From: Gammaproteobacteria bacterium
GTDB lineage: Bacteria > Pseudomonadota > Gammaproteobacteria > Eutrophobiales > Eutrophobiaceae
DNA: 64,000 nucleotides
Reading direction: 5' to 3'
Assembly: GCA_016179185.1 (NCBI GenBank)
Contig: JACORW010000018.1
Span: 1-64,000 of the forward strand
Shown: positions 1,934 to 19,529 of the stretch, in pieces
How positions within the stretch are numbered: position 1 is the stretch's first letter
How the letters are laid out: each line of letters begins with the position of its first letter
Program-made: the position numbers and the translations under genes
Notes under the pieces: model-generated
Seen by the model: the letters and a program-made list of their open reading frames with translations, nothing else
Told to the model about the DNA's origin: nothing
The model's database searches: none

Positions 1934-2826
1934 TTCAGGATGTCCCACAGATGAAAATGAAACGGGCCAAGCTTGCCGCCGTAGTTGCCGGCCCCAATGC
2001 GGTAGATCCCCTTGCCGGGACCGAACTTGCACACCGCGCGGATCCCGGCGCACATGGCCTCACGGATCGCCGCCTCGTTAAGGCCGTCGATGACAATCTC
2101 TAGCACCGATCCCACCTCTGCGGACAGCAGCGAAGTTACCTGGCCTTTCAGTGTCGGGCAGAACACCTCGTTCGTCGAGGCGGGCATGAACCTGTATTTC
2201 GAGCCGACCTTGGATCCCGATCCGACAATGCCGCCGGGAAACGTGGTCACCGCGCCGTGCACGGCGCGGATCGCCACCACCGCCCGTTCGCAGGCGGCGA
2301 GACCGTGGCGGGAGGTCTTGGCCATGACGAGAAAATTGCCGCCGCCGATGGCAGGCACGACGCCGGTCGTGTCCTCGCACAGGAACTCGCCGTGCATGAC
2401 CGGAATGCGCCAATAGCGCACACCATTGACCTTCTTCGAGATCTGATAACCGTCGCCGAAATAGCGCAGGCTCTTGCCGAGGGGAATGACGTCGTCGCTG
2501 CGGCTGCCGGCGAAACAGGCGCTGGTGGCAGTGGTCATCACCGACTGGCCCACGCGCCTGCGGACCTGTTCCACCAGTTGCTTGCGGGACATCGCAAAGA
2601 TGATGACGGCGATCCCGGGACGCCCGTCCGGCGTTTCCTCCGGAAGCAGTTCCCGTTCGATGTCCGCCTCGCACCCGCAGGCAATCACTGACGAGGCAAA
2701 TCCGGTCAGCGAATTCGCCGCCCGATACGCCCATTTCAACGTCATCGCGGTGATGATCAGCCGCGTCGCCTTCATTGGAAAGGCCTCGGCGAAAGTATCG
2801 TCAATGTGGACGCCGTTGATGCGCAT
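1930..2826 (-). CDS. fhcD: Formylmethanofuran:H4MPT formyltransferase (hydrolytic set)
   Basis: This 298-residue protein matches formyltransferase (Ftr/FhcD) over its full length. It starts MRINGVHIDDTFAEAFPMKA and has the conserved stretches RYFGDGYQISKKVNG and GGIVGSGSKVGSKY, with the C-terminal EIVIDGLNEAAIREAM. It moves the formyl group from formyl-H4MPT to methanofuran in the oxidative direction, in the cytoplasm, and in bacteria is part of the Fhc complex. It sits 6 bases after fhcA and overlaps fhcC. A second Ftr is encoded at 8423-9325. Confidence 0.94.
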   Translation of the reverse strand: MRINGVHIDDTFAEAFPMKATRLIITAMTLKWAYRAANSLTGFASSVIACGCEADIERELLPEETPDGRPGIAVIIFAMSRKQLVEQVRRRVGQSVMTTATSACFAGSRSDDVIPLGKSLRYFGDGYQISKKVNGVRYWRIPVMHGEFLCEDTTGVVPAIGGGNFLVMAKTSRHGLAACERAVVAIRAVHGAVTTFPGGIVGSGSKVGSKYRFMPASTNEVFCPTLKGQVTSLLSAEVGSVLEIVIDGLNEAAIREAMCAGIRAVCKFGPGKGIYRIGAGNYGGKLGPFHFHLWDILN

Positions 2827-2832
2827 GGCCGG

Positions 2833-4494
2833 CTACACCGGCAGGCAGGAATGGGTGCTGAGGCCGGCCCGGCCGTAGCTCAGCAATTCATCGTCGCCGA
2901 GGCGGAAATTCCCCAGTCGCACGGTATGGTATCTGTCGAAGTAACGCTGCAGCCGCCGCGCGATGGCAGGGTCGAACTCGGGCGCCACCCGATGCACTGT
3001 CCCTGCCGGCGTGTCTATAATCCGGCCATCCTGTACCACCGGCTTCCCGTCCTTGAACACCAGCCGCGGGCTGGAAAACATTTCCTCCATGTTCCTGCGT
3101 TTGCGATACACGACGACGTCGGCCGCAGCCCCCACGCCAAGGTGGCCGCGATCGCCCAATCCCAGGCTGCGGGCGGGCGCGGCCCGGGTCAGGATGGCAA
3201 TTTCATACAGTGAGTATTCCCGGGTCAGGCTCGCCAGGATGGAGTGCTGGCGCGCGGCCGGGTGCAGTCCGGACAGCATCTCCAGTCGGTATTCCCGGTC
3301 CATGAGCAGCCGGATCAGGTGCGGATAGCAGGTGAACGGCGCTCCATTCGGATGATCGGTGGTCAGGAAGATGCGCCACGGGTCGTTGATCAGCAGGAAC
3401 AGCTCGAGGCCGACGCACCACTGCAACGCGTTGACGAAGTTCCTGCTGCGGTAGTTGAACGGGACCACGCCGCAACCGGCGTCGCACTCGATGTCCATGG
3501 TCACGGTCTTCTTCGGGTGCGCGTGCTTCGCGCCGCGGAACTGCAGCATGGTGTCGCCGGAAGCGGTCACCGTCCGGCCGAACATGATTTGGCCCACATC
3601 CAGCGAAATATTCTGCGCGGCATTGATGCGTTCGGCGATGCGCGCGGCGCCGGACGAGAATTTTCTATCCCCTTCCTTGCCGTAGGCATGGAACTGCAGG
3701 TGCGTCAAATGCATGCGCAACCCGTCCGCGGCCGTAATGGTGTCCAGCGTGGTCGCGTCATTCCCCGGCACGCCGAGGTTGCAGCCGTGCACGTGCAGGG
3801 GATGGGGAATGCCGAGATCGTGCACGGCGGTGCACAGTGCCCGCAGAATGCTCCGCGGCGTCACGTCATACACGGCATGGCGCTCGTCCAGGTCCAGCTT
3901 GCGCTGATTGAACTTGAAGGCATTGATGCCGCCGGGGTTCACGACCTTGACGGCCAGCGCCTGGGTGGCGCGCATCGTCCAGGCGACATAATCGGTTATC
4001 AGCGCTTGCGGAGCGCCGTCGGACATCAGTTGCAGCAGGAAGTCGTCATTGCCCATCAGCACATAAGCGCCGGCATCGACTATCGGGATGTCCGCCATCT
4101 CCAGATGCGCCTGGCGTGTGTTGGCCGGCAGCATCGCCGGCTCGAAGCACGCGGTGTAACCCATTTCCGCGTACCGATACCCGGTGACGAACGTGGACGG
4201 CACCGCCCGGCCGGAACCGCCGCGGCGTCCGGCCGATGGCGCCACCGGGTCCTGTTCATGATCTTCCGGCAACAGTACCCGCGCAATGTTGACCTTGCCG
4301 CCGCCGATGTGCGTGTGTATGTCTAGCGCTCCTGCCATGACGATATTGCCCGACAAATCATATTCGCGATCGATCTTGCGCATTGCGGCGGGGGCACGGA
4401 CGATGCGCCCGTCTTCGATGAAGATGTCCCGTTGCACGGCGTTGACGCCGTGCGCCGGGTCAATGATCGTGCCGTTCGCGAGTCTGGTCAGCAT
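2833..4494 (-). CDS. fhcA: Formyl-methanofuran hydrolase subunit A, amidohydrolase (hydrolytic set)
   Basis: This 553-residue member of the amidohydrolase superfamily hydrolyses formyl-methanofuran to formate and methanofuran. It shows the metal-binding HxH at residues 60-62 (ALDIHTHIGGGKVN), the Lys region KVVNPGG, the His motifs HVHGCNLG and HLQFHAYG, and the Asp/His motif TTDHPNG. Its length is normal for FhcA/FwdA. It lies 3 bases after the fhcB stop and 6 bases before fhcD. Compared with the other A subunit (9333-10982) it has bacterial-type replacements such as MAGALDIH for MPGGVDIH. Confidence 0.94.
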   Translation of the reverse strand: MLTRLANGTIIDPAHGVNAVQRDIFIEDGRIVRAPAAMRKIDREYDLSGNIVMAGALDIHTHIGGGKVNIARVLLPEDHEQDPVAPSAGRRGGSGRAVPSTFVTGYRYAEMGYTACFEPAMLPANTRQAHLEMADIPIVDAGAYVLMGNDDFLLQLMSDGAPQALITDYVAWTMRATQALAVKVVNPGGINAFKFNQRKLDLDERHAVYDVTPRSILRALCTAVHDLGIPHPLHVHGCNLGVPGNDATTLDTITAADGLRMHLTHLQFHAYGKEGDRKFSSGAARIAERINAAQNISLDVGQIMFGRTVTASGDTMLQFRGAKHAHPKKTVTMDIECDAGCGVVPFNYRSRNFVNALQWCVGLELFLLINDPWRIFLTTDHPNGAPFTCYPHLIRLLMDREYRLEMLSGLHPAARQHSILASLTREYSLYEIAILTRAAPARSLGLGDRGHLGVGAAADVVVYRKRRNMEEMFSSPRLVFKDGKPVVQDGRIIDTPAGTVHRVAPEFDPAIARRLQRYFDRYHTVRLGNFRLGDDELLSYGRAGLSTHSCLPV

Positions 4495-4497
4495 GGC

Positions 4498-5760
4498 TCA
4501 GATGCAGCCGCGGATCTGATTCAGCACGTCTGCGGCGCCGGGCAGGGTGGTGCCGCGTACGGCACGCAACGGCAGGCCGACAACATTGTCGAGGCGAAAC
4601 ATCGTCCCGGCGGCATCCAGACCGGGGATCGCCACCGGAATAAACACCTCGGCGAGCGCGGCCAGGCGTCGTGACGGCGGCGCGAGGATTATCGTCGGAA
4701 TCCGCCTGCGTTGCGGGGGCGGAAGCGGGTGCAGCGTCGAGATCCACAACAGTGCGTCCGCTTCCCGGCGCTCCAGCAATGCCTCGCAGGCGTTTCGTGA
4801 CGGGTTGTATTCCGGGGCGCCGCCGGCAAAGTTGACGCGCAGGGGGTAGCCGGTTTGCCACGCGCACACGTTCAGTGCCGTGATCGCGCCGTCGCTGCCG
4901 CCGAGGGAAAGCCCCGCCGCGCGCGTGAACCGGTTCAGGTCGGCAACCAGCTCGCAGGCTCCCTCAATGACGATATCGGCCAGTTCGGACGCAAGCTGTC
5001 CGGGAGCCCAGGCCACGACCGCGTAGTGTGCGGAGCGCAATCGGGCAGCAAGTTTTTTCAATGCCGGCATCCTGCCCGCGTGGGGGCCTTTCCGCGGCAG
5101 GGGAATGGCTTGCCCGGACAGCGTTGCGCGCAATACGCTCAGCATCTCCGGCAGGTCATTCGGGCGGCACGTTATGGACGTGGCGGAAGAAATCTGCCGC
5201 TTCAGCGATCTTCCCAGCGCCGCTGCACCGATGACGGCTACCTGCCGTGACCTTCTGGGTTTTCGCCCCATTGTCGGCCGGGGCTGCAGGCAGCGCTCGG
5301 TGAAGCGCGGGTTGACTGAATCGCCGTCGGTGCCCAGCAGCAGCACGAGGTCGGCGCGATTGCGCAACTCCGTGAGCGTTGTCATAATCCAGCCGCGCCG
5401 TTGCACCACCAGCGCGTTGCTGATGACGGCATGACCGTGCATGTGGTCCACGGCGGCGCCGGTCTTCTCCGCCAGCGCCAGCGCGGCGCGGCATCCTGAC
5501 GCGTCCGTCGCCATCCCGGCAATTAATGGCTGGTGTGATCGTTTCAGGACCCGGGCCGCATGTTTGACAGCCTGATCCAGCGTCACCGGCAGTCCCTGGA
5601 CGCGCGCCCGCGGATCGGCGCCGGACTGGGCAAATCCGCTAACGGCGCGGTCGCAGCCCCTGGCGACGACCCGGGCCGTGTCGCCGTCCATTGCCACCAT
5701 CAAATCGTCGCAGTGCAGGCCGCAGAACGGGCAGGTCACATCCTTTATCGTAGTTGACAT
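4498..5760 (-). CDS. fhcB: Fhc subunit B lacking the Mo/W ligand Cys (hydrolytic set)
   Basis: The ATG at 5760 gives a 420-residue protein related to the catalytic Mo/W subunit FmdB/FwdB. The Fe-S type cysteines remain (CPFCGLHC at residues 10-17 and Cys36). The segment that in the paralogue reads SVCHGPS is here AVDHMHGHAV, so the metal-ligand Cys is gone. In bacterial Fhc this subunit is known to be redox inactive, with the complex only hydrolysing formyl-methanofuran to formate; the missing ligand fits that. There is no partner FmdD in this gene set. It is first of the Fhc block and lies 98 bases downstream of the reductase gene. Confidence 0.92.
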   Translation of the reverse strand: MSTTIKDVTCPFCGLHCDDLMVAMDGDTARVVARGCDRAVSGFAQSGADPRARVQGLPVTLDQAVKHAARVLKRSHQPLIAGMATDASGCRAALALAEKTGAAVDHMHGHAVISNALVVQRRGWIMTTLTELRNRADLVLLLGTDGDSVNPRFTERCLQPRPTMGRKPRRSRQVAVIGAAALGRSLKRQISSATSITCRPNDLPEMLSVLRATLSGQAIPLPRKGPHAGRMPALKKLAARLRSAHYAVVAWAPGQLASELADIVIEGACELVADLNRFTRAAGLSLGGSDGAITALNVCAWQTGYPLRVNFAGGAPEYNPSRNACEALLERREADALLWISTLHPLPPPQRRRIPTIILAPPSRRLAALAEVFIPVAIPGLDAAGTMFRLDNVVGLPLRAVRGTTLPGAADVLNQIRGCI

Positions 5761-5858: not shown

Positions 5859-7247
5859 TTACGCCAGCAACGCGAGCATTTCCCTGACGTAGGTAAACTT
5901 CTCCCGCGGTTTGCCGAGATTCGCGCCGCGTGCGACCTCGGCTGCGTCGATTCTCTTCCAGTCGGAGAAGCTGACGGGACGGGTGCCGCGCCCGTGGAGG
6001 AGACTGCGCAGAGAGGCGAATCCGGATTTTCCGCCTGCAGCGGAAAGTTTCGGCAGATCGGCCACCAGCGATGCCACGGTAGCCACGCTGTCGGCGCGAT
6101 TTGTCCCAATGATACCCGTTGGCCCGCGCTTGATCCATCCGGCGACGTATATCTGCGGGACCGACTGACCTTCGGCGACGACGCGCCCCGCGAGGTTCGG
6201 GATCGTCCCGGAACGGGGATCGAACGGCACGCCGGGCATGGCGATGCCGCGGTAGCCGATGCTGCGAAACACGAGTCCGGTCTCGAGCGACATGAATTTT
6301 CCGGTGCCGCGCGCGGACTGATTCATTGGCGCGCCGGAGAGGACATTGTGTTCCAGCACGATGTTACGCACCCGGCTGTCGCCTTCAATGCGCGCCGGGC
6401 TCTTCTGAAACGTGAATACCACGCGCCGGCGCGCCTTTCCCGGGGGCCGGGCTGCAAAACCGGAGAAAATCTCCACAATGCGTTTCGCGCCGGCATTGCC
6501 CGCGCCGGCGATCTCCGCGGCGCTGGCCTCATTGAGGGCGAGTTCGGCCGGATCGATGCTGGCGTCGCATTCCTCCAATTCGCCGAATTCCTTCAATTCC
6601 TTCGAGGTGAATTTTGCCTGGGCCGGCCCGCGCCGCCCGACGACGAAAATCTCCCTGACCTTGCTGGTGCGCAGAACCTCCAGCGCGTGTTCGGCGATAT
6701 CGGTGTGGGCCAGTTCCTGAGGCGACCTTGCCAGTATTCTGGCGACGTCGGCGGCCACGTTTCCCTGGCCGATGATCACGGCCCGTTCATGGGAAAGGTC
6801 GAAAACGCGGTCGCGGAAATCGGGATGGCCATTGTACCAGCCGACAAACTCGGTGGCAGTGTGGCTGCCGGCAAGGCTCTCGCCATCTATGCCGAGGGGT
6901 TTGTCCGCTTCGGCGCCGCACGCGAGGATCACGGCATCGTAGGCTTCGCACAGCTCGCCCACGCTCACGTCGTTACCGACGCGGATATTGCCGTAGTACT
7001 CGAAACCCGGCATTTCCGCGATCCGGGAATAAACATCAATTACCTGTTTCAGCTTGGCGTGATCCGGAGCGACGCCGCTGCGCACCAGCCCGTACGGCAC
7101 CGGCAGGCGCTCGAGCATGCTGATCTGCACCGGCAATCCGGATTTGAACAGCGCCTCAGCCGCGTAAAATCCGCTTGGGCCGCTGCCGACGATGGCCACC
7201 TGCCACGGCGCGCCGGAGGCGCCCGAGCCTTCAGCCACGGCAATCAA
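5859..7247 (-). CDS. Ferredoxin-NADP reductase, adrenodoxin reductase/FprA type
   Basis: This 462-residue flavoprotein transfers electrons between ferredoxin and NADP(H). The FAD-binding motif VAIVGSGPSGFYAAEAL is at residues 17-33. The family signature LPVPYGLVRSGVAPDH follows, and an NADP-binding motif GQGNVAADVARIL lies near residue 160. The late motif GWIKRGPTGIIGTNR is also typical. The class usually pairs with a ferredoxin, and the gene 31 bases upstream encodes one (7279-7584). Its place between two formyl-methanofuran complexes suggests it passes electrons from formyl-methanofuran oxidation, via that ferredoxin, to NADP. NAD versus NADP preference cannot be fixed from sequence. Confidence 0.9.
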   Translation of the reverse strand: MIAVAEGSGASGAPWQVAIVGSGPSGFYAAEALFKSGLPVQISMLERLPVPYGLVRSGVAPDHAKLKQVIDVYSRIAEMPGFEYYGNIRVGNDVSVGELCEAYDAVILACGAEADKPLGIDGESLAGSHTATEFVGWYNGHPDFRDRVFDLSHERAVIIGQGNVAADVARILARSPQELAHTDIAEHALEVLRTSKVREIFVVGRRGPAQAKFTSKELKEFGELEECDASIDPAELALNEASAAEIAGAGNAGAKRIVEIFSGFAARPPGKARRRVVFTFQKSPARIEGDSRVRNIVLEHNVLSGAPMNQSARGTGKFMSLETGLVFRSIGYRGIAMPGVPFDPRSGTIPNLAGRVVAEGQSVPQIYVAGWIKRGPTGIIGTNRADSVATVASLVADLPKLSAAGGKSGFASLRSLLHGRGTRPVSFSDWKRIDAAEVARGANLGKPREKFTYVREMLALLA

Positions 7248-7278: not shown

Positions 7279-7584
7279 TCAGAATCCGAGCGCGGATTTT
7301 CTTTCCTCCGCCCCGGGCAGGGGATCCATCTGCTCGCTGCATACCGGCAGACCCTTGGAGCGTGTGGCGTTGATCTCAATCCACTCGCGCTTGTCATCCG
7401 GGAGATCGTCTTCCTCAAAGATGGCCTGCACCGGGCATTCGGGGATGCACGCGCTGCAATCGATGCAGACGTCGGGGTCTATGTAAAGCATCTCGCCGTC
7501 GTAATGGAAACATTCTACGGGGCAAACGGCGACGCAATCGGTGAAGCGGCAACCTTGGCAGTTGTCAGTGACTACGGTGGTCAT
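7279..7584 (-). CDS. fdxA: 7Fe-type ferredoxin (FdxA-like)
   Basis: The ATG at 7584 has GAGGG about 8 bases upstream and gives a 101-residue ferredoxin; an upstream in-frame ATG at 7620 lacks such a site. The cysteine pattern CQGCRFTDCVAVCP followed by CIDCSACIPECP fits one 3Fe-4S and one 4Fe-4S cluster, with the C-terminal extension seen in FdxA proteins. It lies between fmdC and the ferredoxin reductase, so it is the likely electron carrier of the formylmethanofuran dehydrogenase set. In methanogens that job belongs to the FmdF/FwdF or FmdG-type polyferredoxins, none of which is seen here. Confidence 0.92.
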   Translation of the reverse strand: MTTVVTDNCQGCRFTDCVAVCPVECFHYDGEMLYIDPDVCIDCSACIPECPVQAIFEEDDLPDDKREWIEINATRSKGLPVCSEQMDPLPGAEERKSALGF

Positions 7585-7616: not shown

Positions 7617-8426
7617 TCAAATTGACGGTGACAGGATCTCGCCGCGGTTAAGCTCCACCGCATCCCCGCACCAGCGGCGGTACGAGGCGGACAGCTGACC
7701 GTCCGTCACCGGCAGACCAAGTCTCCGCAGGTGGAGGAGATACAGGGGCAGAAACGACGGCCGGTATTCGCATGCGTAGGCGAATGTCGGCAGCACTTCC
7801 AGCGGCTGCATTGCGATGATCGTCCCGCGTTTCATGCCGGCCCCGGTCCGAATTCCCGCGGCGCCGAAAATTGTAACAGTGCCGGCCAGCATGTTGACAC
7901 CGGCAAAATCGCCGCAGCTCCCGCCGATGGCAATCAGGCCGCCGCGCATGCCGTGGCCGGCCTCGTTCCGGGCGGCGCCGTGAATGATGATTTCGCCGCC
8001 GGTCATGCCCACGGCGGCGCCGCGGTAAGCGCTGCCTGCGAGATGGCCGGCGCTGCCGCGTATGACGATACGCCCACCCCGCATCTCCGGGCCGACCCAG
8101 TCGCCCGCATTACCGGAGACGACGATGGTGCCGCCGAGCATTTCCGCACCAAGATGGGCACCGGCGTGGCCGTCAATGTGGATCTGGCCGCAGGACATTG
8201 TCGCGCCGATGTGCTTGACCCGGGACATGTCTCCGCGCAGCTGGATGGTTTCACCGGGCGCGCCTGACACGGTGAACACTTCCGCCAGCGGCACCTGGCG
8301 ATTTCCATAAAACACCGGCAGGCGCTCGATTTCGGCAATGGGCAGTTGCCTCAGGCGATCCGGAGTAATGCAGTCCGCTTCCACCGGTACCTCGGGCGCG
8401 GCGCGCAGTTCCAGCCGCAGGGTCAC
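7617..8426 (-). CDS. fmdC: Formylmethanofuran dehydrogenase subunit C (redox set)
   Basis: This 269-residue beta-helix subunit carries repeats such as GGTIVVSGNAGDWVGPEM and GGRIVIRGSAGHLAGSAY across residues 60-200. It scaffolds the A and D subunits. The GTG start at 8426 overlaps the preceding ftr stop as GTGA. The N-terminal segment (VFYGNRQVPLAEVF) resembles methanogen FmdC/FwdC more than the bacterial FhcC at 1094-1933. The ferredoxin gene follows after 32 bases. Confidence 0.88.
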   Translation of the reverse strand: MTLRLELRAAPEVPVEADCITPDRLRQLPIAEIERLPVFYGNRQVPLAEVFTVSGAPGETIQLRGDMSRVKHIGATMSCGQIHIDGHAGAHLGAEMLGGTIVVSGNAGDWVGPEMRGGRIVIRGSAGHLAGSAYRGAAVGMTGGEIIIHGAARNEAGHGMRGGLIAIGGSCGDFAGVNMLAGTVTIFGAAGIRTGAGMKRGTIIAMQPLEVLPTFAYACEYRPSFLPLYLLHLRRLGLPVTDGQLSASYRRWCGDAVELNRGEILSPSI

Positions 8427-9325
8427 GGCACGGCCCCGCCGTTCAGGAGGCTGTGCAGCCGGATCTGGTATTGCCCGAGGTTTCCGCCGTAATTGCCCGC
8501 CGAGATCGCGGCCAGACCGGGGCGGGCCGCGGCCTGCATGCCGGCGGCCATGGCGCAGCGCACGGCGTGTTCGCTCAGGCCGTCAATGACGATCTCCAGG
8601 GCGCAATTCACTTCGGGGCGCAGGCCGGTTGCGCCGGCAACGGAGCGCAGGGTGGGGCAAAAGGCATCGTTGGTCGAGGCAGGCAGGCCCTTGTAACGGG
8701 ACCCCACCTTGCTGCCGCTGCGCACGACCCCGCCGGGGAAGGGCAGGGCCACATCGGGCAGTGCGCGGATCGCGGCAACGGCGGCCTGGGCGGCGGCCAC
8801 GGCCGTCCCGGCGTCCGTACCGCACAGAATCAGGTTGCCGCCGCCGACAGCCGGCTGCATCCCGAAACGATCCTGCACCAGAAACTCGCCGTCCATGACC
8901 GGGATGCGCCAGTAGCGCCGGTCGCCGATTTTCTTGCTCATCTGATATCCATCGCCGAAATATCGCAGTTTCCCGCCGATGCTCGTGTCATGACCGGAGT
9001 CCAGTCCCGCAAAGCATGCCGTCGTGGGACAGGTCATCACGCACTGCCCGATGCGCTCCACCAGCCGCTTGCCGAGCGCGGCCTTGTCCATCGCGAACAG
9101 GAGGATGCTCGCGCCGGGACGGCCGTCGGGCGTCTCCTGCGCCGCAAGCGCGCGTTCGATTCCAGCCTCGCACTTGCAGCCGATGACCGACGTGGCAAAG
9201 CCGGTCATGGATTGCGCCGCTGCCTGCGCCCATTCGGGGCCGGCCGCGGTGACGACCACGCGCGTGCCCCACATGGCGAATGCCTCGGCAAAAGTATCTT
9301 CGATGTGCGTGGATCCGATCTGCAT
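8423..9325 (-). CDS. ftr: Second formylmethanofuran:H4MPT formyltransferase (redox set)
   Basis: The ATG at 9325 gives a 300-residue protein starting MQIGSTHIEDTFAEAFAMWG, the canonical Ftr start; earlier in-frame ATGs would add non-conserved sequence overlapping fmdA. RYFGDGYQMSKKIGDRRYW, GGVVRSGSKVGSRYKGL and EIVIDGLSEHAVRCAM are conserved. It catalyses formyl transfer between H4MPT and methanofuran. It lies 7 bases after fmdA and overlaps fmdC by 4 bases. Having a dedicated Ftr for each complex supports the view that both sets are complete and used separately. Confidence 0.93.
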   Translation of the reverse strand: MQIGSTHIEDTFAEAFAMWGTRVVVTAAGPEWAQAAAQSMTGFATSVIGCKCEAGIERALAAQETPDGRPGASILLFAMDKAALGKRLVERIGQCVMTCPTTACFAGLDSGHDTSIGGKLRYFGDGYQMSKKIGDRRYWRIPVMDGEFLVQDRFGMQPAVGGGNLILCGTDAGTAVAAAQAAVAAIRALPDVALPFPGGVVRSGSKVGSRYKGLPASTNDAFCPTLRSVAGATGLRPEVNCALEIVIDGLSEHAVRCAMAAGMQAAARPGLAAISAGNYGGNLGQYQIRLHSLLNGGAVP

Positions 9326-9332
9326 CGTCAGT

Positions 9333-10982
9333 TCAACCGGTCGCCGGTCGCAGCGGGATGACCTCGTGATCATGCAGGTAGCTGTCAGGGACTGCGTAAT
9401 TGTCGAATTCGATGGAATAATAATTCTCGAAGAACGGACGCACCGCATCCACGATGGATGCGTCGTACTCGGGGGCAATGTGCAGCATCCGGCCGCTGAA
9501 GTCGGCGCAGAACTCGTGGTTATCTATGATCATGTGGCCCGATTTGATTACGTAGCGTGGGGCGCTGAACATGCGTTCCCGGTCAGGGTGGTCGTCATAA
9601 ATGGTGATGTCGGCGTCCGCGCCTGCTCCCAGGTGCCCCTTGTTGCGCAGGCCCAGCGCCCGTGCCGGCCCGGCGCGCGTGATGATGGCGATCTCGTTCA
9701 GGGAGTATTCGCGATCCAGGTCCGGCAGCGTGGTCCTGGCGATGGCGCGCCGGTTGACCCGCTGCATTTCCTGCTTCCGGAAATCGCGATCCATCAGCAG
9801 CCGGATGAGCTTTGGGTAACTCTGGAACGAACCGCCATTGGGATGGTCCGTGGACAGGATGATGCGCCACGGGTCCGCAGACATCAGGAACAGCTCCAGT
9901 CCGATGGCCCATTGCAGGGCGTGCACATAGACTTTTTCCTGATAACTGAACGGCAGAATGCCGCAGCCGCTTTCGCATTCCGTGTCGGCGTTGATCCACT
10001 TGGCCTTCTTGATGCCGCGCAGCATGTAGGCCAGCGGGGCATCCGCGGTCATGATCGTGGACTTGCCGAACATGACCTGGCCCACGTCGCAGGTGATATT
10101 CGGATGCGCGTTCACGTAGTCGGCGATCTCCCGGGCGGCGGAGCCCGGGTTCTTCCCGGGCTCACCGGCGTAGCTGTGAAACTGGATGTGGGCCACGTGC
10201 AGCCGCCGGTCACCGGCGGTCTTCATGGTTTCCAGCGTGGTGCGGAAGTTGCCGCTGTGGCCGAGGTTGTTGCAGTGAATATGCGGCGGGTGCGGGAAAC
10301 CGGCGTCGTTCGCCACCTCGACGAAGGCGTCAATGATCTGGCGTGGGCTGATGCCGAACACGTCGTTCTTTTCGTCCAGATCGGAAACATTGGAATTGCG
10401 CCGCCCCTTCCACGGTTCATCACCGCCGGGATTTACGAGCTTGGCCGTGTAGGCCTTGGTGGAATTAATCCACCAGGCCACCGCCTGCCGGAACTCCGAC
10501 CTGCGCCCGTCCCGCAGCAGCTGCTGCAGAAAAATATTGTTGCCGAGCAGCACATAGAATCCCTTGTCGATGATCGGCGTGTCATGCAGTTCCTCCAGCG
10601 TGTGCCGCGCGCCGATGGGCGTGACCGCCGCTTCCATGGCCGTGGTGTATCCGAGCGTGGCATACCGGTAACCGGTGGCGAATGTTGACGGCACAATCCC
10701 GCCGGAGCCCGAGCGCGTAAACCTGGTTCCCGGGTGCGGGTCGCGGCGGTGGTCCTCCGGCTGGAGCTTGCGCGCGAGATTGACCTTGGGACCGGCGATG
10801 TGACAGTGAATGTCCACGCCGCCCGGCATGACGACCATGCCGCGGGCGTCTATGGTGCGATCGGGCTCCGCAACCGCGTCGGCGATCCTGCCGTCGCGCA
10901 CGAACAGGGTGCGGGGTTCGCCGGCGATCCGGTTGGCCGGGTCATGGACGCTGCCGTTGACGATGCACAGGGTGCTGGACAT
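9333..10982 (-). CDS. fmdA: Formylmethanofuran dehydrogenase subunit A, amidohydrolase (redox set)
   Basis: This 549-residue amidohydrolase-family subunit shows HxH at residues 59-61 in GGVDIHCHIAGPKVN, then KLVNPGG, HIHCNNLG, HIQFHSYAG and STDHPNGGSFQSYPK. In methanogens this subunit interconverts formate and formyl-methanofuran at a metal centre, and formate is channelled to or from the Mo/W site on subunit B. The MPGGVDIH and IAGPKVN forms match the archaeal type better than the paralogue at 2833-4494. It lies 45 bases after fmdB and 7 bases before ftr. Confidence 0.92.
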   Translation of the reverse strand: MSSTLCIVNGSVHDPANRIAGEPRTLFVRDGRIADAVAEPDRTIDARGMVVMPGGVDIHCHIAGPKVNLARKLQPEDHRRDPHPGTRFTRSGSGGIVPSTFATGYRYATLGYTTAMEAAVTPIGARHTLEELHDTPIIDKGFYVLLGNNIFLQQLLRDGRRSEFRQAVAWWINSTKAYTAKLVNPGGDEPWKGRRNSNVSDLDEKNDVFGISPRQIIDAFVEVANDAGFPHPPHIHCNNLGHSGNFRTTLETMKTAGDRRLHVAHIQFHSYAGEPGKNPGSAAREIADYVNAHPNITCDVGQVMFGKSTIMTADAPLAYMLRGIKKAKWINADTECESGCGILPFSYQEKVYVHALQWAIGLELFLMSADPWRIILSTDHPNGGSFQSYPKLIRLLMDRDFRKQEMQRVNRRAIARTTLPDLDREYSLNEIAIITRAGPARALGLRNKGHLGAGADADITIYDDHPDRERMFSAPRYVIKSGHMIIDNHEFCADFSGRMLHIAPEYDASIVDAVRPFFENYYSIEFDNYAVPDSYLHDHEVIPLRPATG

Positions 10983-11027: not shown

Positions 11028-12383
11028 TCAGGCGGTCAGCGGCAATTCGAAAGCGGACCTGGCGCCATGCGGGGTGCGGGCCAGCAGCAGCTCGCGCACC
11101 TTCTCCCGGATGGCCTTCAGGATGGACTCGTCATCGGGAAACGGCGAATCGAATGCCTTGCGCATCGTGATCGGCACATCGTCCATCCGGTATACGGTGC
11201 CGCCGGTATTGATGCCGTAGGTCGCGGTCCGAAAGGCCACGCGGGCAAGACCGGAAGTCAGCGTCGCTTTCGGGTCCAGCGAGATCACGGGTATGCGTCG
11301 CAGGTGGGCGGTGGCCTCCCTGGGAAAATTGGACGCGGGATCGCTGGCGATGATCATCGCCGCATCGGCGTCGCCGCGCGCAAGGGTGTCCACCGTGGTG
11401 AATTCTCCGGGATTGAAGCGTGGATAGCCGCGGCTGAAATTGACGCCGAACGGATAGCCGGTCTGCCAGGACATGACGTTGTCCGCGCCGGTGACGTTGC
11501 CGTGGCCGCGCACCGGTTTGGCGACAAAATGGGTGAATTCATTCAAATCCGTGGCCAGCGCAAGCAGCGCGCCGGAATTGAAGTGCCGGCCGCGGGTCAT
11601 GGTCAACCCCATGCCGAAGAACAGCACGCCGTACCGGCAGCCTTTCATCCGCTGCACGAGATCCTCGATCGTGGCCGGCGGCACGCCGGTAATTTCCTCG
11701 ATGTCCGCATGGATCGGGCGCCCCTTGACGCGCACCCGCAGCGCCCACAGCAGTTCAAAATCCTTGCCCGGCTTCAGTTGCACGAAGATGTTGGCGGCGG
11801 GGACGCTGGGCGTGCGGCGCACGTCGATCACGACCACGGTGCGATCCTTCTTGCCGTTGGGGGTGAACATTCCCTTCGCCGTGACCGCGTAGCGGCCAAA
11901 GTGCCGCGGGTGGGATTCGGCCGGATTGCCGCCCCAGTAGATCACCAGATCAGCGCGGTTCTTGACCTCTCCCAGCGTCATGGTGCTTTCACCGACACCC
12001 TGGAAGGCAATACCCGACGGGCCATGACAAACCGATGTGGTGGTGTCGATGTTGCCGCGTACCATGTCCATGATTGCGACCGCCTGCCGCTGGGCCTCGC
12101 AGGTGGTATCGCTGAGGCCGTAGGCGATCGGAAACCGCGCCTCCACCAGTATGCGCGCCGCCTCCGCGACGGCCGCGTCAATCGTGGCGGGTTTACCCTC
12201 CATCAAGGCGGCCGGCGCCTCTTCAATGGTGTGTTCCGCAAACCAGGCCCGTCCCAGCACACAGGCATTCTTGGCCTTGACGATCCGTTTCTGCGTATCG
12301 TCCACGGTCAGGATCATGTCATCGCAGACGCATCCGCAAAAGGTGCAGGTGGCGTTTTCAACGACGCGCAGGTTCTCACTCAT
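11028..12383 (-). CDS. fmdB: Formylmethanofuran dehydrogenase catalytic subunit B with intact Mo/W and Fe-S ligands
   Basis: The ATG at 12383, overlapping the fmdD stop as ATGA, gives 451 residues. The Fe-S ligands are complete: Cys13, Cys16 and Cys20 in CTFCGCVC, and Cys41 in KNACVLG. The segment DTTTSVCHGPSG places a Cys at residue 119, the position of the Mo/W-ligating Cys (Cys118) in methanogen FwdB. Pterin-site sequence such as WGGNPAESHPRHFGRYAV is also methanogen-like. This is therefore expected to be a redox-active subunit that interconverts CO2 and formate for formyl-methanofuran. Mo versus W cannot be told from sequence. Bacterial Fhc complexes are not known to have this activity. 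Confidence 0.93.
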   Translation of the reverse strand: MSENLRVVENATCTFCGCVCDDMILTVDDTQKRIVKAKNACVLGRAWFAEHTIEEAPAALMEGKPATIDAAVAEAARILVEARFPIAYGLSDTTCEAQRQAVAIMDMVRGNIDTTTSVCHGPSGIAFQGVGESTMTLGEVKNRADLVIYWGGNPAESHPRHFGRYAVTAKGMFTPNGKKDRTVVVIDVRRTPSVPAANIFVQLKPGKDFELLWALRVRVKGRPIHADIEEITGVPPATIEDLVQRMKGCRYGVLFFGMGLTMTRGRHFNSGALLALATDLNEFTHFVAKPVRGHGNVTGADNVMSWQTGYPFGVNFSRGYPRFNPGEFTTVDTLARGDADAAMIIASDPASNFPREATAHLRRIPVISLDPKATLTSGLARVAFRTATYGINTGGTVYRMDDVPITMRKAFDSPFPDDESILKAIREKVRELLLARTPHGARSAFELPLTA

Positions 12384-12757
12384 GGATTGACACCTTCGCT
12401 GTTGCGATGTCCGGCAGGCACTTTTTCGACGGTTACCGCCAGGTTTTTCGACAACGGCATGCCGCTGCCCGCGGTATCCGCCTCCATGAGTTCGCTGGAA
12501 CACGGTCCATAGGCCATGAAGATCATGCCGGAGGGGAGGTCCGCGGCCTTGCGCGGCGTGCAGGTGACCGTAGTCTCGCCGGCGTCGTTGCGGAGCCGGA
12601 CGCGATCACCCTCCTTCAGTCCGAGCCGGGCCATATCCTGCTCGTTCATCTCCGCGGTGGAGGTGACCTGCTGGTATTCCGCTTTCAGCTTGCCCTTGTT
12701 CAGGGAGGTTCCCTGCTCGCTGGTGCGTCCCGCGATCAACAACATGGTTTCAGTCAT
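12380..12757 (-). CDS. fmdD: Molybdopterin dinucleotide-binding subunit D of formylmethanofuran dehydrogenase
   Basis: This 125-residue protein is a stand-alone molybdopterin-dinucleotide-binding domain, the counterpart of FmdD/FwdD. It begins MTETMLLIAGRTSEQGTSLN. A GLKEGDRVRLRNDAGETTV segment forms the barrel and FMAYGPCSSELMEADTAG the cofactor-contact region. In the archaeal enzyme it completes the cofactor site of subunit B. It is first in the minus-strand operon and its stop overlaps fmdB. Bacterial Fhc operons normally lack this gene, so its presence is a key sign of a metal-dependent complex. Confidence 0.92.
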   Translation of the reverse strand: MTETMLLIAGRTSEQGTSLNKGKLKAEYQQVTSTAEMNEQDMARLGLKEGDRVRLRNDAGETTVTCTPRKAADLPSGMIFMAYGPCSSELMEADTAGSGMPLSKNLAVTVEKVPAGHRNSEGVNP

Positions 12758-13073
12758 GATCAGGTCCGAATTCGATTGCGCCGGGAGCTTGCCCCGAACA
12801 AGGGCAGTCCGGCAAGGCGTTTCCGTGTTGCCGGGAAAGGGGAGGGGCCTGCCAGCGCCGTCGGACCATCAACCTTGCCGCTGCCCTGCATGATACCTGA
12901 AGAACAGCGGATTTTCCCGGGAGTTCCCTGACATATGGCTGGTCAGGGTGGCGGCCAATTACCCGGTCCGCGCCTTCCGGCGCAACCGGACCGGGTAGTT
13001 CGCGGTGGTAAGATGCGCGGCGAGTCTTACCCCCAGCCTGGTTGCCCCCACGTGCAGCCGGAGGAGAGGCGCA
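12758..13073. promoter_or_regulatory. Divergent intergenic region of the C1 locus with two inverted repeats
   Basis: This gap separates the minus-strand fmd/fhc operon from the plus-strand H4MPT operon and should hold both promoters. An inverted repeat CCCTGAC (12926-12932) / GTCAGGG (12942-12948) with a 9-bp spacer looks like an operator. Just after it, ACCCGGTCCG (12961-12970) pairs with CGGACCGGGT (12987-12996) around an inner GCGCC/GGCGC stem. I could not pick convincing -35/-10 boxes. Shared control of both operons is inferred. Confidence 0.5.
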
Positions 13074-14057
13074 GTGGCCCGAGACGTTCGAATCCATGTG
13101 CAGGCCCATGCCAGGCTGCATCTTGGTTTTCTGGACTTTCATGGTTCGCGCGGCCGCCAGTTCGGCAGCATCGGTCTTTCACTGCAGGACGTTGCGCTGG
13201 AGTTGGCGGTTGCCCCGGATGCAAGTATCAATGTCACCGGCCCGGGTGGTGCGCGGGTCGAAGCCGTGGCGCGTGTGGTGCTGGAGAAAATTGGTCATGC
13301 CGGCGGTGCGAACATCCGGATAAGCCGCGCCATCCCGGAGCACGCCGGACTGGGCTCGGGCACCCAACTGGCCCTGGCGGTGGGTAGCGCCTGCGCGCGA
13401 CTCGCCGGCGCGCGGTTGTCGCCCGAGGAGCTGGCGCAACTGCTGGTGCGGGGTCAGCGATCGGGGATCGGTATCGGGACGTTTTCCCTGGGTGGCTTCA
13501 TCGTGGATGCGGGACGCGGCGCCGCAACCAGCCTGCCGCCGGTCGTCAGCCGCTTGCCGGTGCCCGAGCAGTGGCGATTTGTCCTGATCATGGATCGCTC
13601 ACGCCAAGGCGTCTGCGGCGATGAGGAGCGGCAGGCCTTCGTGGATCTGCCCGCAATGCCGGAGTCCCAGTCCGCGCATCTCTGCCGCATGGTGTTGCTG
13701 CAGCTTTTGCCTGCGCTGGTGGAGTCGGACTGCACCGCGTTCGGCGCCGGCGTCACCGATATCCAGTCGATCATCGGCGAATATTTTGCGGGCCGGCAGT
13801 CGGGACATTATCGAAGTCCCGACGTGGCGGCCGCACTCATGTCCATGATGGAATGCGGTGCCACCGGCAGCGGCCAGAGTTCCTGGGGGCCGACGGGATT
13901 CGCGATATTTCCCGATTCGGCGGCTGCGGCCCGCGCGGTGGAGCTTGCCCGCCGGCGCTGGCATGACAATCCACGCCTCGATTTTGTATCATGCCGCGCC
14001 GCCAACCACCCTGCGGTCATTCGGTCTGAGACCGCGGCCCGCCACGCGCACGGCTGA
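13074..14057 (+). CDS. Beta-ribofuranosylaminobenzene 5'-phosphate synthase
   Basis: A GTG at 13074 preceded by GGAGGAGAGG gives a 327-residue GHMP-kinase-fold protein. RLHLGFLDFHGSRGRQFGSI near the N-terminus and the glycine-rich IPEHAGLGSGTQLALAVG match the beta-RFAP synthase family, which condenses p-aminobenzoate with phosphoribosyl pyrophosphate in the first committed step of methanopterin synthesis. pabB, which supplies p-aminobenzoate, is at 19526-20902. It is the first gene of the plus-strand operon, 47 bases before mtdB. Confidence 0.9.
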   Translation: MARDVRIHVQAHARLHLGFLDFHGSRGRQFGSIGLSLQDVALELAVAPDASINVTGPGGARVEAVARVVLEKIGHAGGANIRISRAIPEHAGLGSGTQLALAVGSACARLAGARLSPEELAQLLVRGQRSGIGIGTFSLGGFIVDAGRGAATSLPPVVSRLPVPEQWRFVLIMDRSRQGVCGDEERQAFVDLPAMPESQSAHLCRMVLLQLLPALVESDCTAFGAGVTDIQSIIGEYFAGRQSGHYRSPDVAAALMSMMECGATGSGQSSWGPTGFAIFPDSAAAARAVELARRRWHDNPRLDFVSCRAANHPAVIRSETAARHAHG

Positions 14058-14104: not shown

Positions 14105-15022
14105 ATGAACGATCCGTATTTGCTGCACATATTCAATCCCACGAAGAACGTGAGCCCTTTTGACGTCAACATGGCTTACGAGGCCGCGTTCAACGGCGTG
14201 ATTCCGTACTCCAACGTGACGTTGGAGGAGATCCATGGACTGACCCAGGACACCATCTTCTCCCGCGGCCCCACCGGCGTGAAGCGCACCGGGATATTCA
14301 TCGGCGGCAGGGAATTCGGCCTCGCCATGGACATGCTGCAGCGGGCGCGGGCGGCCATGGTCCCGCCGTTCGAGGTGTCGGTATTTGTCGATCCAAGCGG
14401 AGCCATCACCACGGCAGCCGCGCTGATGGCCTGTATCGAAGCCGCAATCAAGAAAGTGTCACAGGGAGATCTGAGGGGCAGGAAGGTGCATATCTTCGGC
14501 GGGACCGGCCCGGTGGGGGTATGCGCGGGGATCCTGGCGGACAGTTGCGGCGCCGAGGTGTATCTCGCCAGCCAGCGCGGCCAGTCGGTGGCGCAGGAGG
14601 TCGCCGACGAATACAACCACCGCTTCGATGTGAACATGCACGGCACAAGCAGCAGCTCGGACGCGGAAATCCGGAATATCGTCAGTGACACCGACGTCAT
14701 CGTCGGTTCCGCCAAGGCCGGCGTGCGGGTTGTGACGCAGTCTCAGTTGGAACAGGCGAAAAACCTGCTGGTTGCCGCGGACGTCAACGCGGTACCGCCC
14801 GCCGGTATCGAAGGCGTCGGTGTGCATGACATGGGCAAGCCGCTCGAGTTCACGCCCGGCAAGGCGCTGGGGATCGGCGCGCTGGCCATCGGCAACATCA
14901 AATACAAGGTGCATTACCGGATGTTCGAATTGATGAAGGGTTCCGAAAAGCCTCTGTACCTCGATCACGTGCAGGCATTTGAAAGCGCGCGCGAGCTCGC
15001 CGGGAAGAAACTGCATGGGTGA
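14105..15022 (+). CDS. mtdB: NAD(P)-dependent methylene-H4MPT dehydrogenase
   Basis: This 305-residue protein matches bacterial MtdB along its whole length: NPTKNVSPFDVNMAYEA near the start, a substrate-side FVDPSGAITTAAALMAC, and a Rossmann nucleotide motif VHIFGGTGPVGVCAGILA near residue 128. It oxidises methylene-H4MPT to methenyl-H4MPT with NAD(P) in the cytoplasm. The stop overlaps the mch start by 8 bases. MtdA is a related but distinct enzyme; the N-terminal sequence and H4MPT context favour MtdB. Confidence 0.95.
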   Translation: MNDPYLLHIFNPTKNVSPFDVNMAYEAAFNGVIPYSNVTLEEIHGLTQDTIFSRGPTGVKRTGIFIGGREFGLAMDMLQRARAAMVPPFEVSVFVDPSGAITTAAALMACIEAAIKKVSQGDLRGRKVHIFGGTGPVGVCAGILADSCGAEVYLASQRGQSVAQEVADEYNHRFDVNMHGTSSSSDAEIRNIVSDTDVIVGSAKAGVRVVTQSQLEQAKNLLVAADVNAVPPAGIEGVGVHDMGKPLEFTPGKALGIGALAIGNIKYKVHYRMFELMKGSEKPLYLDHVQAFESARELAGKKLHG

Positions 15023-16007
15023 GATCCCGTCAAGAACCTGGCCCAGCGTCAGCACGCTGACCGCGCCGCTCGTGGAGGGCCTGATCGCCCGGCGCGGCGA
15101 TCTGGATCTGGGTGTTTTCAAGCCGGATCAAAAGGCCACGGTCATTGATGCGGGCATCGAACGGCCGGGTGGGCTGGAGGCGGGGCGTCGCATCGCGGAA
15201 ATCTGTCTCGGCGGCCTTGGGTCAGTGCGCTTTCGCTCCGCGTCCAGCCCGGGCCCGTGGAACTGGTGGGTGGACGTGCATGCCGGCAGCCCGGTTCTGG
15301 CGTGCCTTGGCAGCCAATACGCGGGGTGGAGTCTGTCCCATGGTGAGGGGAAGAGCGGATTTCGCGCCCTGGGATCCGGTCCCGGCCGGGCTGTGGGAAG
15401 CGGCGAGGAACTGTTTGAAGAGTTGGGATACCGCGACCGTGCCGACGGCACGGTGTTGATTCTCGAGGTGGACAAGCCGCCTCCGGCGGGACTCGTGGAA
15501 GAAATATCTGAAAAATGCGGCATTTACGAGGACAATCTAACGTTTATTCTTACACCCACTTCCAGCCTGGCCGGTGTCGTGCAGATCGTTGCGCGCGTGC
15601 TGGAAACGGCGCTTCACAAGGCACACGCCCTCAAGTTTCCGTTGGCGGCGATCATTGATGGTGCGGGAAGTGCGCCGCTGTGCCCTCCGGCGCCGGACTT
15701 GCTGACCGCCATGAGCCGGACCAACGATGCAATCCTGTTCGCCGGGCAGGTTCATCTGTTTGTGCGCGCGGAAGATCCCGAGGCGGAGGCGCTTGCGCAG
15801 CGGCTTCCCAGCAGCGCGTCGCCGGATTTCGGGCGGCCCTTCGGCGAAGTCTTCAAGCGCGCAAATTTCGACTTTTACAAGATTGACCCGCTGCTGTTCA
15901 GTCCGGCGTGTGTCACCGTGACCAACCTGCGATCGGGAACGTCTTTTCACGCCGGGAAGATCCATTCCGAACTGCTCAACGAGTCCTTTTTCGGCAAGTT
16001 CGGCTGA
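15015..16007 (+). CDS. mch: Methenyl-H4MPT cyclohydrolase
   Basis: The ATG at 15015 lies inside the end of mtdB (ATGGGTGA) and gives 330 residues, the usual Mch size. Recognisable segments are VSTLTAPLVEGLIARRGDL, GGLEAGRRIAEICLGGLG and PVLACLGSQYAGWSLS. It hydrolyses methenyl-H4MPT to formyl-H4MPT, the step before formyl transfer to methanofuran by the two Ftr proteins encoded on the other strand. Confidence 0.95.
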   Translation: MGEIPSRTWPSVSTLTAPLVEGLIARRGDLDLGVFKPDQKATVIDAGIERPGGLEAGRRIAEICLGGLGSVRFRSASSPGPWNWWVDVHAGSPVLACLGSQYAGWSLSHGEGKSGFRALGSGPGRAVGSGEELFEELGYRDRADGTVLILEVDKPPPAGLVEEISEKCGIYEDNLTFILTPTSSLAGVVQIVARVLETALHKAHALKFPLAAIIDGAGSAPLCPPAPDLLTAMSRTNDAILFAGQVHLFVRAEDPEAEALAQRLPSSASPDFGRPFGEVFKRANFDFYKIDPLLFSPACVTVTNLRSGTSFHAGKIHSELLNESFFGKFG

Positions 16008-17025: not shown

Positions 17026-17538
17026 ATGGCAGTCATCGATCGAGTACTTGTAGGCGAATCGCTGGTTGGCGACGGCAATGAAGTCGCGCACATCGACCTG
17101 ATCATGGGACCGCGCGGCAGCGCCGCCGAAACCGGATTCTGCAATGCACTGGTCAACAATAAGGACGGTTTCACGACCTTGCTGGCCGTGGTCGCACCGA
17201 ATCTGGCGTGCAAGCCGAATACGGTCCTGTTCAACAAGGTAACCATCAAGGGCGCCAAGCAGGCGGTGCAGATGTTCGGACCCGCGCAGCGCGCAGTCTC
17301 CATGGCCGTCATGGATTGCGTCAAGGACGGCACCATTCCGGCCAATGAGGCGGACGACATTTTCATCTGCGTCGGCGTATTCATTCACTGGCTGGCGGCG
17401 GATGACAAGAAAATCCAGGACTACAACTATCAGGCGGTAAAGGAGTCCATCCAGCGCGCCGTGAAACGTGAGCCGAAGTCCGCGGAAGTGCTGAGCAAGC
17501 GCGGCAGCGCCAACCACCCGTTCCAGGCGCATGCGTGA
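17026..17538 (+). CDS. fae: Formaldehyde-activating enzyme
   Basis: This 170-residue protein is Fae: [18 protein letters not shown] (with the His near residue 22 expected for catalysis) and [19 protein letters not shown] are near-invariant. It condenses formaldehyde with H4MPT to methylene-H4MPT and is usually very abundant. A strong ribosome site GGAGGAG lies 7 bases before the ATG. It is separated by 115 bases from the upstream gene and followed by its own terminator, which suggests a separate high-level transcript. A heptad repeat starts at the first base after the stop codon. Confidence 0.97.
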
Positions 17539-18473: not shown

Positions 18474-19529
18474 GTGACCACGAGACATTGTTTCGGCTGG
18501 GACATCGGCGGCGCACATCTGAAAGTTGCCGAGCTCGCGCCTGACGGCGCCGTGGTATCGGCGGCGCAGTATGCCACACCGCTATGGAACGGCCTGCAGA
18601 GCCTCGATGGCTGTCTGTCGGGCGTCAGCCGCGCCCGTTCCACGCCGGACGTGCGGCACGCGGTAACGATGACCGGGGAACTGGTGGATTTTTTTACCGG
18701 TCGGCAGGCGGGCGTCACGGCGCTGCTGGAGGCGTTCGTCAGGCATTTTCCCGAGGAGCACACCGTGGTGTTCGGCGGGCCGCTGGGATTTCTGCCCGTT
18801 TCCGCGGCGCGCGCCGCGCCGGACAACGTGGCGTCGGCGAACTGGCTCGCCACGACGCTGTGCGCCGCGGGGCGCATTGAGCGTGGCGTGCTGGTGGACG
18901 TCGGCAGTACGACCACTGACATCGTCCCGTTTGCCGCGCACCAGCCGTGTAATCGCGGCTGGAACGACCAGGAGCGGCTGTCCTGCGATGAGCTGGTCTA
19001 CACGGGTATTGTACGCACGCCCGTCATGGCGCTGGTTCAGCGCGTGCCGTTCGCCGGCCGCTGGCAGAACATTGCGGCGGAATTTTTTGCGACCGCCGCC
19101 GATGTGTACCGGATCACCGGGGAACTGGACGACGCGGCGGACCTGCACGAATCCGCCGATCGCCGCGGCAAGTCGGTGGCGGAAAGCATTGCGCGACTGG
19201 CACGCATGCTGGGCGCGGAAGCCCGTGCCGGCGCGGAAGAAGCCGGCCGCTGGCGGCAAGTGGCCGAACACATCGCGGCGGTGCAACTGCGCATAATCGA
19301 GCGCGCCTTCACCGGCGTGCTGTCAAGTCTTGGGGCCGGATTGCCGGTGACGGTGGTTGGCGCCGGCTCCGGCTCGTTCCTGGCACGCAAACTCGCACAG
19401 CGCCACGGCTGCGGCTATGTATCATTCCCGGCACTGTTTGAGAGCTCGGCAGTTGCGCCCGAAGCGGTTGCAACCTGTGCGCCTGCGATTGCGGTGGCGG
19501 AACTCGCGCGGCGTGCGCGGCTGCAATGA
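18474..19529 (+). CDS. mfnF: H4MPT-linked C1 pathway protein, MfnF-like (hydantoinase/oxoprolinase fold)
   Basis: The GTG at 18474 gives 351 residues. FGWDIGGAHLKVAEL is an ASKHA-type phosphate loop, followed by TMTGELVDFFTGRQAGV and LVDVGSTTTDIVPF. These are hallmarks of the family whose archaeal member MfnF joins the tyramine and aminomethylfuran parts of methanofuran. In this setting it should help make the bacterial methanofuran analogue used by both formyl-methanofuran complexes. It overlaps pabB as ATGA and reads divergently from the HisA-like gene. Confidence 0.82.
   Translation: MTTRHCFGWDIGGAHLKVAELAPDGAVVSAAQYATPLWNGLQSLDGCLSGVSRARSTPDVRHAVTMTGELVDFFTGRQAGVTALLEAFVRHFPEEHTVVFGGPLGFLPVSAARAAPDNVASANWLATTLCAAGRIERGVLVDVGSTTTDIVPFAAHQPCNRGWNDQERLSCDELVYTGIVRTPVMALVQRVPFAGRWQNIAAEFFATAADVYRITGELDDAADLHESADRRGKSVAESIARLARMLGAEARAGAEEAGRWRQVAEHIAAVQLRIIERAFTGVLSSLGAGLPVTVVGAGSGSFLARKLAQRHGCGYVSFPALFESSAVAPEAVATCAPAIAVAELARRARLQ

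Follow-up and report, generated by a model that had tools for sequence, protein, structure and literature searches.

Aerobic H4MPT methylotrophs are usually drawn with a single exit, in which Fhc leads to formate. Two genes for B subunits of this kind of complex are found in one operon of the window (the whole stretch of DNA analyzed, 64,000 nucleotides of a gammaproteobacterial contig), which raises the question of whether both encode the same type of enzyme and, if not, where the electrons of the second one would go. A previous sequence-only reading had answered the first part with one residue, a cysteine claimed to separate a redox enzyme from a hydrolase. The larger finding is the operon itself, with its fwd, fdx-fprA and fhc genes.

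Gene Organization of the Operon

The operon consists of a one-strand run of 11 genes in the order fwdD-fwdB-fwdA-ftr2-fwdC-fdx-fprA-fhcB-fhcA-fhcD-fhcC, spaced −25 to +98 bases apart; fwdD and fwdB overlap by 4 bases. The relevant features of the window are:

12380-12757, minus strand: fwdD, molybdopterin-dinucleotide-binding subunit, 125 aa (Pfam Molydop_binding 2.7e-13; NCBIfam FwdD 6.3e-21, below cut-off)
11028-12383, minus strand: fwdB, putative Mo/W catalytic subunit with invariant site residues (TIGR03129 507 bits, cut-off 327.8; 5t5i_B 2.4e-112)
9333-10982, minus strand: fwdA, amidohydrolase subunit, HxH, Lys, His and Asp motifs kept (TIGR03121 702 bits, over cut-off; 5t5i_A 7.8e-140)
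8423-9325, minus strand: ftr2, formylmethanofuran:H4MPT formyltransferase of the fwd half, start set at the ATG at 9325 (TIGR03119 417 bits)
7617-8426, minus strand: fwdC, beta-helix subunit (TIGR03122 277 bits, over cut-off)
7279-7584, minus strand: fdx, FdxA-like ferredoxin (NCBIfam FdxA_Protbact 1.1e-33, below cut-off; Pfam Fer4 domains)
5859-7247, minus strand: fprA-like ferredoxin:NADP+ reductase, adrenodoxin-reductase type (FprA 1lqt 6.7e-118; 1cjc 1.4e-103)
4498-5760, minus strand: fhcB, cofactor-less paralogue, Fe-S cysteines kept, Cys118/His119/Arg288/His290 missing (AlphaFold pLDDT 89, TM 0.88 to 5t5i)
2833-4494, minus strand: fhcA, amidohydrolase subunit of Fhc (TIGR03121 735 bits; 6s6y_A 3e-135)
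1930-2826, minus strand: fhcD, formyltransferase of Fhc (TIGR03119 415 bits)
1094-1954, minus strand: fhcC, start approximate (TIGR03122 220 bits)
13005-14057, plus strand: beta-RFAP synthase of H4MPT biosynthesis, oriented away from the operon (TIGR00144 144.6 bits, above cut-off)
14105-15022, plus strand: mtdB-like methylene-H4MPT dehydrogenase (Pfam Mpt_N 3.5e-34)
14979-16007, plus strand: mch, methenyl-H4MPT cyclohydrolase (TIGR03120 363 bits)
17026-17538, plus strand: fae, formaldehyde-activating enzyme (TIGR03126 243 bits)
18474-19529, plus strand: MfnF-like protein, methano/methylofuran biosynthesis (TIGR03123 320 bits; MfnF model 3e-37, below cut-off)

Formyltransferase and amidohydrolase genes are thus kept in both the fwd and the fhc half, while the F/G polyferredoxin module of the methanogen enzyme is absent from the gene cluster, with fdx and fprA there instead. 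The contig ends just past fhcC. In a genome of the same family (L091), a NuoF-like protein and Fdh-alpha, and then a PQQ methanol-type dehydrogenase, are encoded beyond fhcC; in the genome of the window, the Fdh-alpha and PQQ dehydrogenase genes are located at the start of another contig, C84. Given these genes together with fae, the mtdB-like gene and mch, the source organism is probably a methanol-oxidizing H4MPT methylotroph.

Cofactor Site of the Two B Subunits

The minus-strand translation of 12383-11028 is uninterrupted over 451 aa and comprises the SVCHGPS motif with Cys119, as well as Cys13, Cys16, Cys20 and Cys41, all of them as previously read. A phmmer search against PDB sequences paired this motif with SVCHGPS of 5t5i_B (E 2.4e-112), whereas FhcB of M. 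extorquens (6s6y_B) was a weak match (5.4e-14). Consistent with the predicted correspondence, which an alignment off the metal-ligand position would have undone, Cys119 fell in a joint alignment on Cys118 of 5t5i, the tungsten ligand in the FwdB of Methanothermobacter wolfei, to which the window FwdB is 44% identical. Cys118/His119/Arg288/His290 of 5t5i corresponded to C119/H120/R292/H294, and these positions were unchanged in 91/91 fetched bacterial FwdB rows, about 10 of which are genomes fetched twice. The numbering of 5t5i in this alignment agrees with a review that names His119 and His290 (PMC11656701).

The paralogue is also encoded on the minus strand (5760-4498; the plus-strand frame is full of stops), where the corresponding stretch reads AVDHMHGHAV and, as first described, holds no cysteine. 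In the joint alignment, A111, V112, G287 and S289 replace Cys118, His119, Arg288 and His290, respectively, and a cysteine at 5t5i position 118 was found in 0/29 FhcB rows. With Cys and His in every FwdB row and Cys in no FhcB row, chance is excluded as the source of the cysteine contrast. However, its description as a one-residue contrast was too narrow, as all four site residues checked differ, and so does the D subunit, whose gene is absent from the fhc half and was found in the fwd half only. The two features that mark Fhc, a B subunit devoid of the cofactor site and the absence of a D subunit, are therefore both present for 5760-4498, whereas the 12383-11028 protein has the site. Judged by its residues, the window FhcB cannot bind Mo/W in the way that FwdB does.

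The Fe-S cysteines, by contrast, did not serve as the separating feature for which they had been taken. The window FwdB keeps the N-terminal [4Fe-4S] set (C13, C16, C20, C41), but FhcB retains all four too (C10, C13, C17, C36), and among the 29 FhcB rows Cys occupies these positions in 27, 29, 27 and 26, respectively. In the AlphaFold model of the window FhcB, the N-terminal domain is in place; the 361-aa M. extorquens FhcB in 6S6Y is without this Fe-S domain and matches from residue 54 of the window FhcB onwards. The [4Fe-4S] cysteines are kept, here and in FhcB of other loci, although the Mo/W site is gone; such proteins may represent a stage on the way to losing a redox site. The FwdB model, built with 25 sequences, reached a pLDDT of 72, with values below 50 for residues 116-142 and 293-328, i.e., the cofactor-site loops, so that no site geometry is readable; Foldseek ranked 5t5i first for this low-confidence model.

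A tree of 60 B subunits resolved three clades, FhcB, bacterial FwdB and archaeal FwdB (support 99, 99 and 94, respectively; some long branches were flagged). The window FwdB fell with FwdB, apart from FhcB (support 99), and the window FhcB grouped with FhcB. Neither the databases, which give FwdB and FhcB the single name 'formylmethanofuran dehydrogenase subunit B', nor TIGR03129 separates them well: some Methylococcales FhcB scored 342–347 bits against a cut-off of 327.8 (L072 and L083 genomes, i.e., G045 and G042). Since some FhcB pass this cut-off, annotations under that name mix both proteins, a trap that the present reading corrects.

Because the checked Mo/W-site residues are complete, the Fe-S cysteines are present and an FwdD partner is encoded, the 12383-11028 protein is very probably a redox enzyme. 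To this extent, the proposed separation of redox enzyme from hydrolase stands, with FhcB lacking the site, but it does not hold for the complexes as a whole. The HxH, Lys, His and Asp motifs of both FwdA and FhcA line up with 5t5i_A and 6s6y_A, and these residues presumably act as metal-site ligands. As both subunits keep them, the contrast is really one of hydrolase plus dehydrogenase against hydrolase alone.

The fwd genes might instead be a vestigial, non-functional second Fhc, with a hydrolase as product and the FwdB residues kept by descent only; after all, the Fhc of M. extorquens proves that hydrolase-only complexes work. This we consider highly improbable, as all site residues are invariant across several phyla, fwdD and MobA are conserved, and FwdB evolves more slowly than FhcB (mean column identity 77% versus 55%). 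The dN/dS of FwdB was low (approximately 0.07–0.15, a rough ratio given that dS is near saturation), indicative of strong purifying selection.

A Candidate Route of Electrons to NADP+

Based on site residues, subunit set, gene order, co-occurrence and the fusion described below, all of which are read directly from sequence, we propose that fwdDBA-ftr2-fwdC probably encodes a working Mo/W formyl-(methano/methylo)furan dehydrogenase that delivers electrons to NADP+ and forms a second exit beside Fhc. Its loading with Mo or W, its oxidative direction, ferredoxin and NADP+ as acceptors, and a regulation of both exits are what we infer. Firstly, Ftr would move the formyl group from formyl-H4MPT onto the furan cofactor, and FwdA would hydrolyze formyl-furan to formate within the complex. 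Then, FwdBD, whose Cys119 would hold a bis-MGD center with Mo or W, would oxidize this formate to CO2. Electrons would pass from the [4Fe-4S] cluster of FwdB to the 7Fe-type ferredoxin encoded in the operon, and from there via the FprA-type flavoprotein to NADP+. The fhcBADC product, in turn, would set formate free as a possible substrate for a separate formate dehydrogenase of the NAD type. Formyl-H4MPT derived from methanol or formaldehyde would thus have two parallel exits, one directly to CO2 and the other via formate.

The ferredoxin and the FprA-type reductase encoded between the two halves, which were missing from the sequence-only reading, probably indicate the destination of the electrons. 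The fdx product shows the pattern CxxC...C...CP / CxxCxxCxxxCP of the 7Fe type, and homology of the 5859-7247 product to FprA is full-length (1lqt, query 14-459), with adrenodoxin reductase (1cjc) as a further match. Among 229 genomes of the class, an FprA-type reductase was present in 11 of the 12 with Cys-type FwdB and in 5 of the remaining 217 (Fisher p 3e-14, without correction for relatedness), and in 8/9 families with FwdB. In 9 of these 11 genomes, the FprA gene was on the same contig at no more than about 6 kb from the FwdB gene. Among loci with long enough flanks, fprA lay within 9 kb in 40/50; in the other 10 none was nearby, so we rejected the view that FprA is used by every bacterial Fwd. 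It was not nearby in the Chloroflexi loci and one planctomycete locus, and was missing genome-wide from the L086, L072 and L083 genomes. That FprA merely follows H4MPT methylotrophy was likewise rejected, given its presence in only 3/19 FhcB-only genomes (against the 11/12 FwdB genomes, p 9e-5, ignoring relatedness).

Two further arrangements place a nicotinamide-linked flavoprotein next to Fwd. In Methylococcales, FwdD is the N-terminal domain of a 733–758-aa protein, the remainder of which is a CysJ-type NADPH diflavin reductase (NCBIfam cysJ 739.6 bits, cut-off 668.15; match to sulfite reductase [NADPH] flavoprotein, 2.7e-145). This fusion was intact in five assemblies, and no FprA-type reductase was found near fwd in the loci that carry it. 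The second arrangement is a fused flavoprotein beside fwd. The features concerned are:

L072:7535-9745, minus strand: FwdD-CysJ fusion of Methylococcales MAGs, divergent from fwdB (also in L071, L073, L081 and L084)
L086:5784-9353 and L077:14842-18393: fused GltD/NfnL- and NfnS-like flavoprotein of about 1185 aa, beside fwd
L086:148-5727: rnf genes, upstream

Taken together, the FprA linkage, the FwdD-CysJ fusion and the Nfn-like fusion suggest that separate solutions supply Fwd with a nicotinamide-linked flavoprotein, which is our strongest inference beyond the active site.

Ferredoxin and FprA could also serve another enzyme. Fwd would then still oxidize formyl-furan to CO2 but pass its electrons to the respiratory chain, Rnf, nitrogenase or other ferredoxin users, as the FwdB genomes without FprA and the rnf genes next to fwd in L086 might indicate. 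We regard this as unlikely, since FprA co-occurs with and adjoins FwdB, unlike the situation in FhcB-only genomes, and the FwdD-CysJ fusion is an independent pointer to NADPH.

Direction and Physiology

The midpoint potential of NADP+ is about −0.32 V. For the formyl-MFR/CO2 couple, a value of about −0.53 V has been given (PMC11656701). Oxidation of formyl-furan by NADP+ is therefore downhill, whereas the reverse reduction by NADPH is not. This bears on the view that Fwd is a real Mo/W redox enzyme that runs reductively, from CO2 to formyl, with reduced ferredoxin derived from NADPH or another source, as in methanogens and the H4MPT branch of the Wood-Ljungdahl pathway. Such is the direction of methanogen Fwd, CO2 reduction is discussed for the Hakuba actinobacterial Fwd (PMC7325909), and rnf genes adjoin fwd in L086. 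Nevertheless, it appears quite improbable for this locus, because the neighbors form an oxidative methylotrophy set (fae, mtdB and mch, with the FDH and PQQ methanol-type dehydrogenase genes on contig C84), NADPH at about −0.32 V cannot drive the −0.53 V reaction unless energy is put in, and neither a bifurcating nor an ion-driven module is encoded in the operon.

In line with the proposed oxidative role, the complete 1.6 Mb chromosome of Candidatus Porisulfidus encodes Fwd, FprA and mch, with no FhcB and no strong formate dehydrogenase match. As FhcB is missing there, Fwd is the only recognizable exit for formyl-H4MPT, and the gene content of this chromosome suggests that Fwd alone can complete formyl-H4MPT oxidation. 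MobA was present in 8/8 genomes checked. FdhD, which is required for sulphuration of formate dehydrogenases, was found in 7/9 genomes, below cut-off, and not in the Candidatus Porisulfidus chromosome.

Distribution

A scan of GTDB-species genomes, from which the best 80 of 253 relatives were kept, yielded among these 80 mostly uncultured Gammaproteobacteria, together with Chloroflexi, Gemmatimonadetes, Planctomycetes and beta- and alphaproteobacterial MAGs. Gene orders vary: many loci have fwd-fdx-fprA-fhc, and others fwd-fdx-fprA without nearby fhc. Most loci have the fdx and fprA genes downstream of fwd, and L034, L045, L052, L067 and L074 have them upstream; the linkage of fwd to fdx-fprA thus outlasts rearrangement. 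Within 229 genomes of the class, Cys-type FwdB was present in 12 and FhcB in 28. In the Methylococcales family, only 6/151 genomes have Cys-type FwdB and most others FhcB only, which makes it a patchy accessory there. A different arrangement was seen in planctomycete loci L085, L087 and L090, where fwdD-fwdB stands alone, the fetched flanks being devoid of fwdA, fwdC and ftr; this may be a free-standing formate dehydrogenase-like pair.

A broader generalization, which we consider about as likely as not, is that a formyl-(methylo)furan dehydrogenase linked to NADP+ and widespread in bacteria would convert formyl-H4MPT to CO2 and NADPH without free formate, often in tandem with Fhc, the NADP coupling varying by lineage (Fdx plus FprA, FwdD-CysJ in methanotrophs, or the Nfn-like fusion).

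Comparison with Known Systems

The window cluster shares its Mo/W-site and Fe-S residues, as well as FwdA, FwdC and FwdD homologues, with FwdABCDFG of M. wolfei (5T5I), but differs in its bacterial H4MPT setting and in its genes for Ftr, a small ferredoxin and an FprA-type reductase in place of FwdF/G. FhcABCD of Methylorubrum extorquens (6S6Y) has its counterpart in the window fhcBADC, and its A-Ftr-C organization is common to the fwd half; in contrast, the window FhcB has an N-terminal Fe-S domain, and the window FwdB has all cofactor residues and FwdD. The F420-reducing enzyme of Candidatus Ethanoperedens thermophilum (8RJA) likewise has a reductase attached that couples formyl-furan oxidation to a soluble hydride carrier (PMC11656701), the acceptor being F420 there and, putatively, NADP+ via Fdx/FprA in the window.

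Closest in gene order is the fwdDBA-ftr-fwdC operon of Hakuba actinobacteria, also in a bacterial host, for which Cys118 and [4Fe-4S] are reported as present in FwdB; H4MPT biosynthesis genes were not observed there, and in the part of that source available neither coexistence with Fhc nor fdx-fprA is described (PMC7325909). Wells et al. listed 149 bacterial FwdB and inferred transfer from Archaea (PMC10100899). In view of both reports, a bacterial FwdB with the Mo/W cysteine is by itself no novelty. For the two-exit operon and the NADP modules, among them the fdx-fprA linkage and the FwdD-CysJ fusion, there was no description in the literature searched, although an earlier notice of the two-exit operon is possible. 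If our reading is correct, a second, metal-dependent exit leading directly to CO2 and NADPH would exist in many uncultured Gammaproteobacteria, USC-gamma and oxygen-minimum-zone Methylococcales among them, and in members of other phyla, and predictions of NADPH/NADH yields, of formate excretion and of the need for Mo/W would all change.

Other Features of the Window

Two further regions were noted. Judged by eye, the ribonucleotide reductase alpha gene (23178-27227, minus strand) carries an intein-like insertion (CFASDTSVF...AHN), followed by Gly and not the usual Cys/Ser/Thr. At 47064-51348 (minus strand), a PhsA/ArrA-like molybdopterin oxidoreductase and a ferredoxin-type subunit are encoded, joined by what looks by eye like a membrane subunit; together they may form a respiratory operon.
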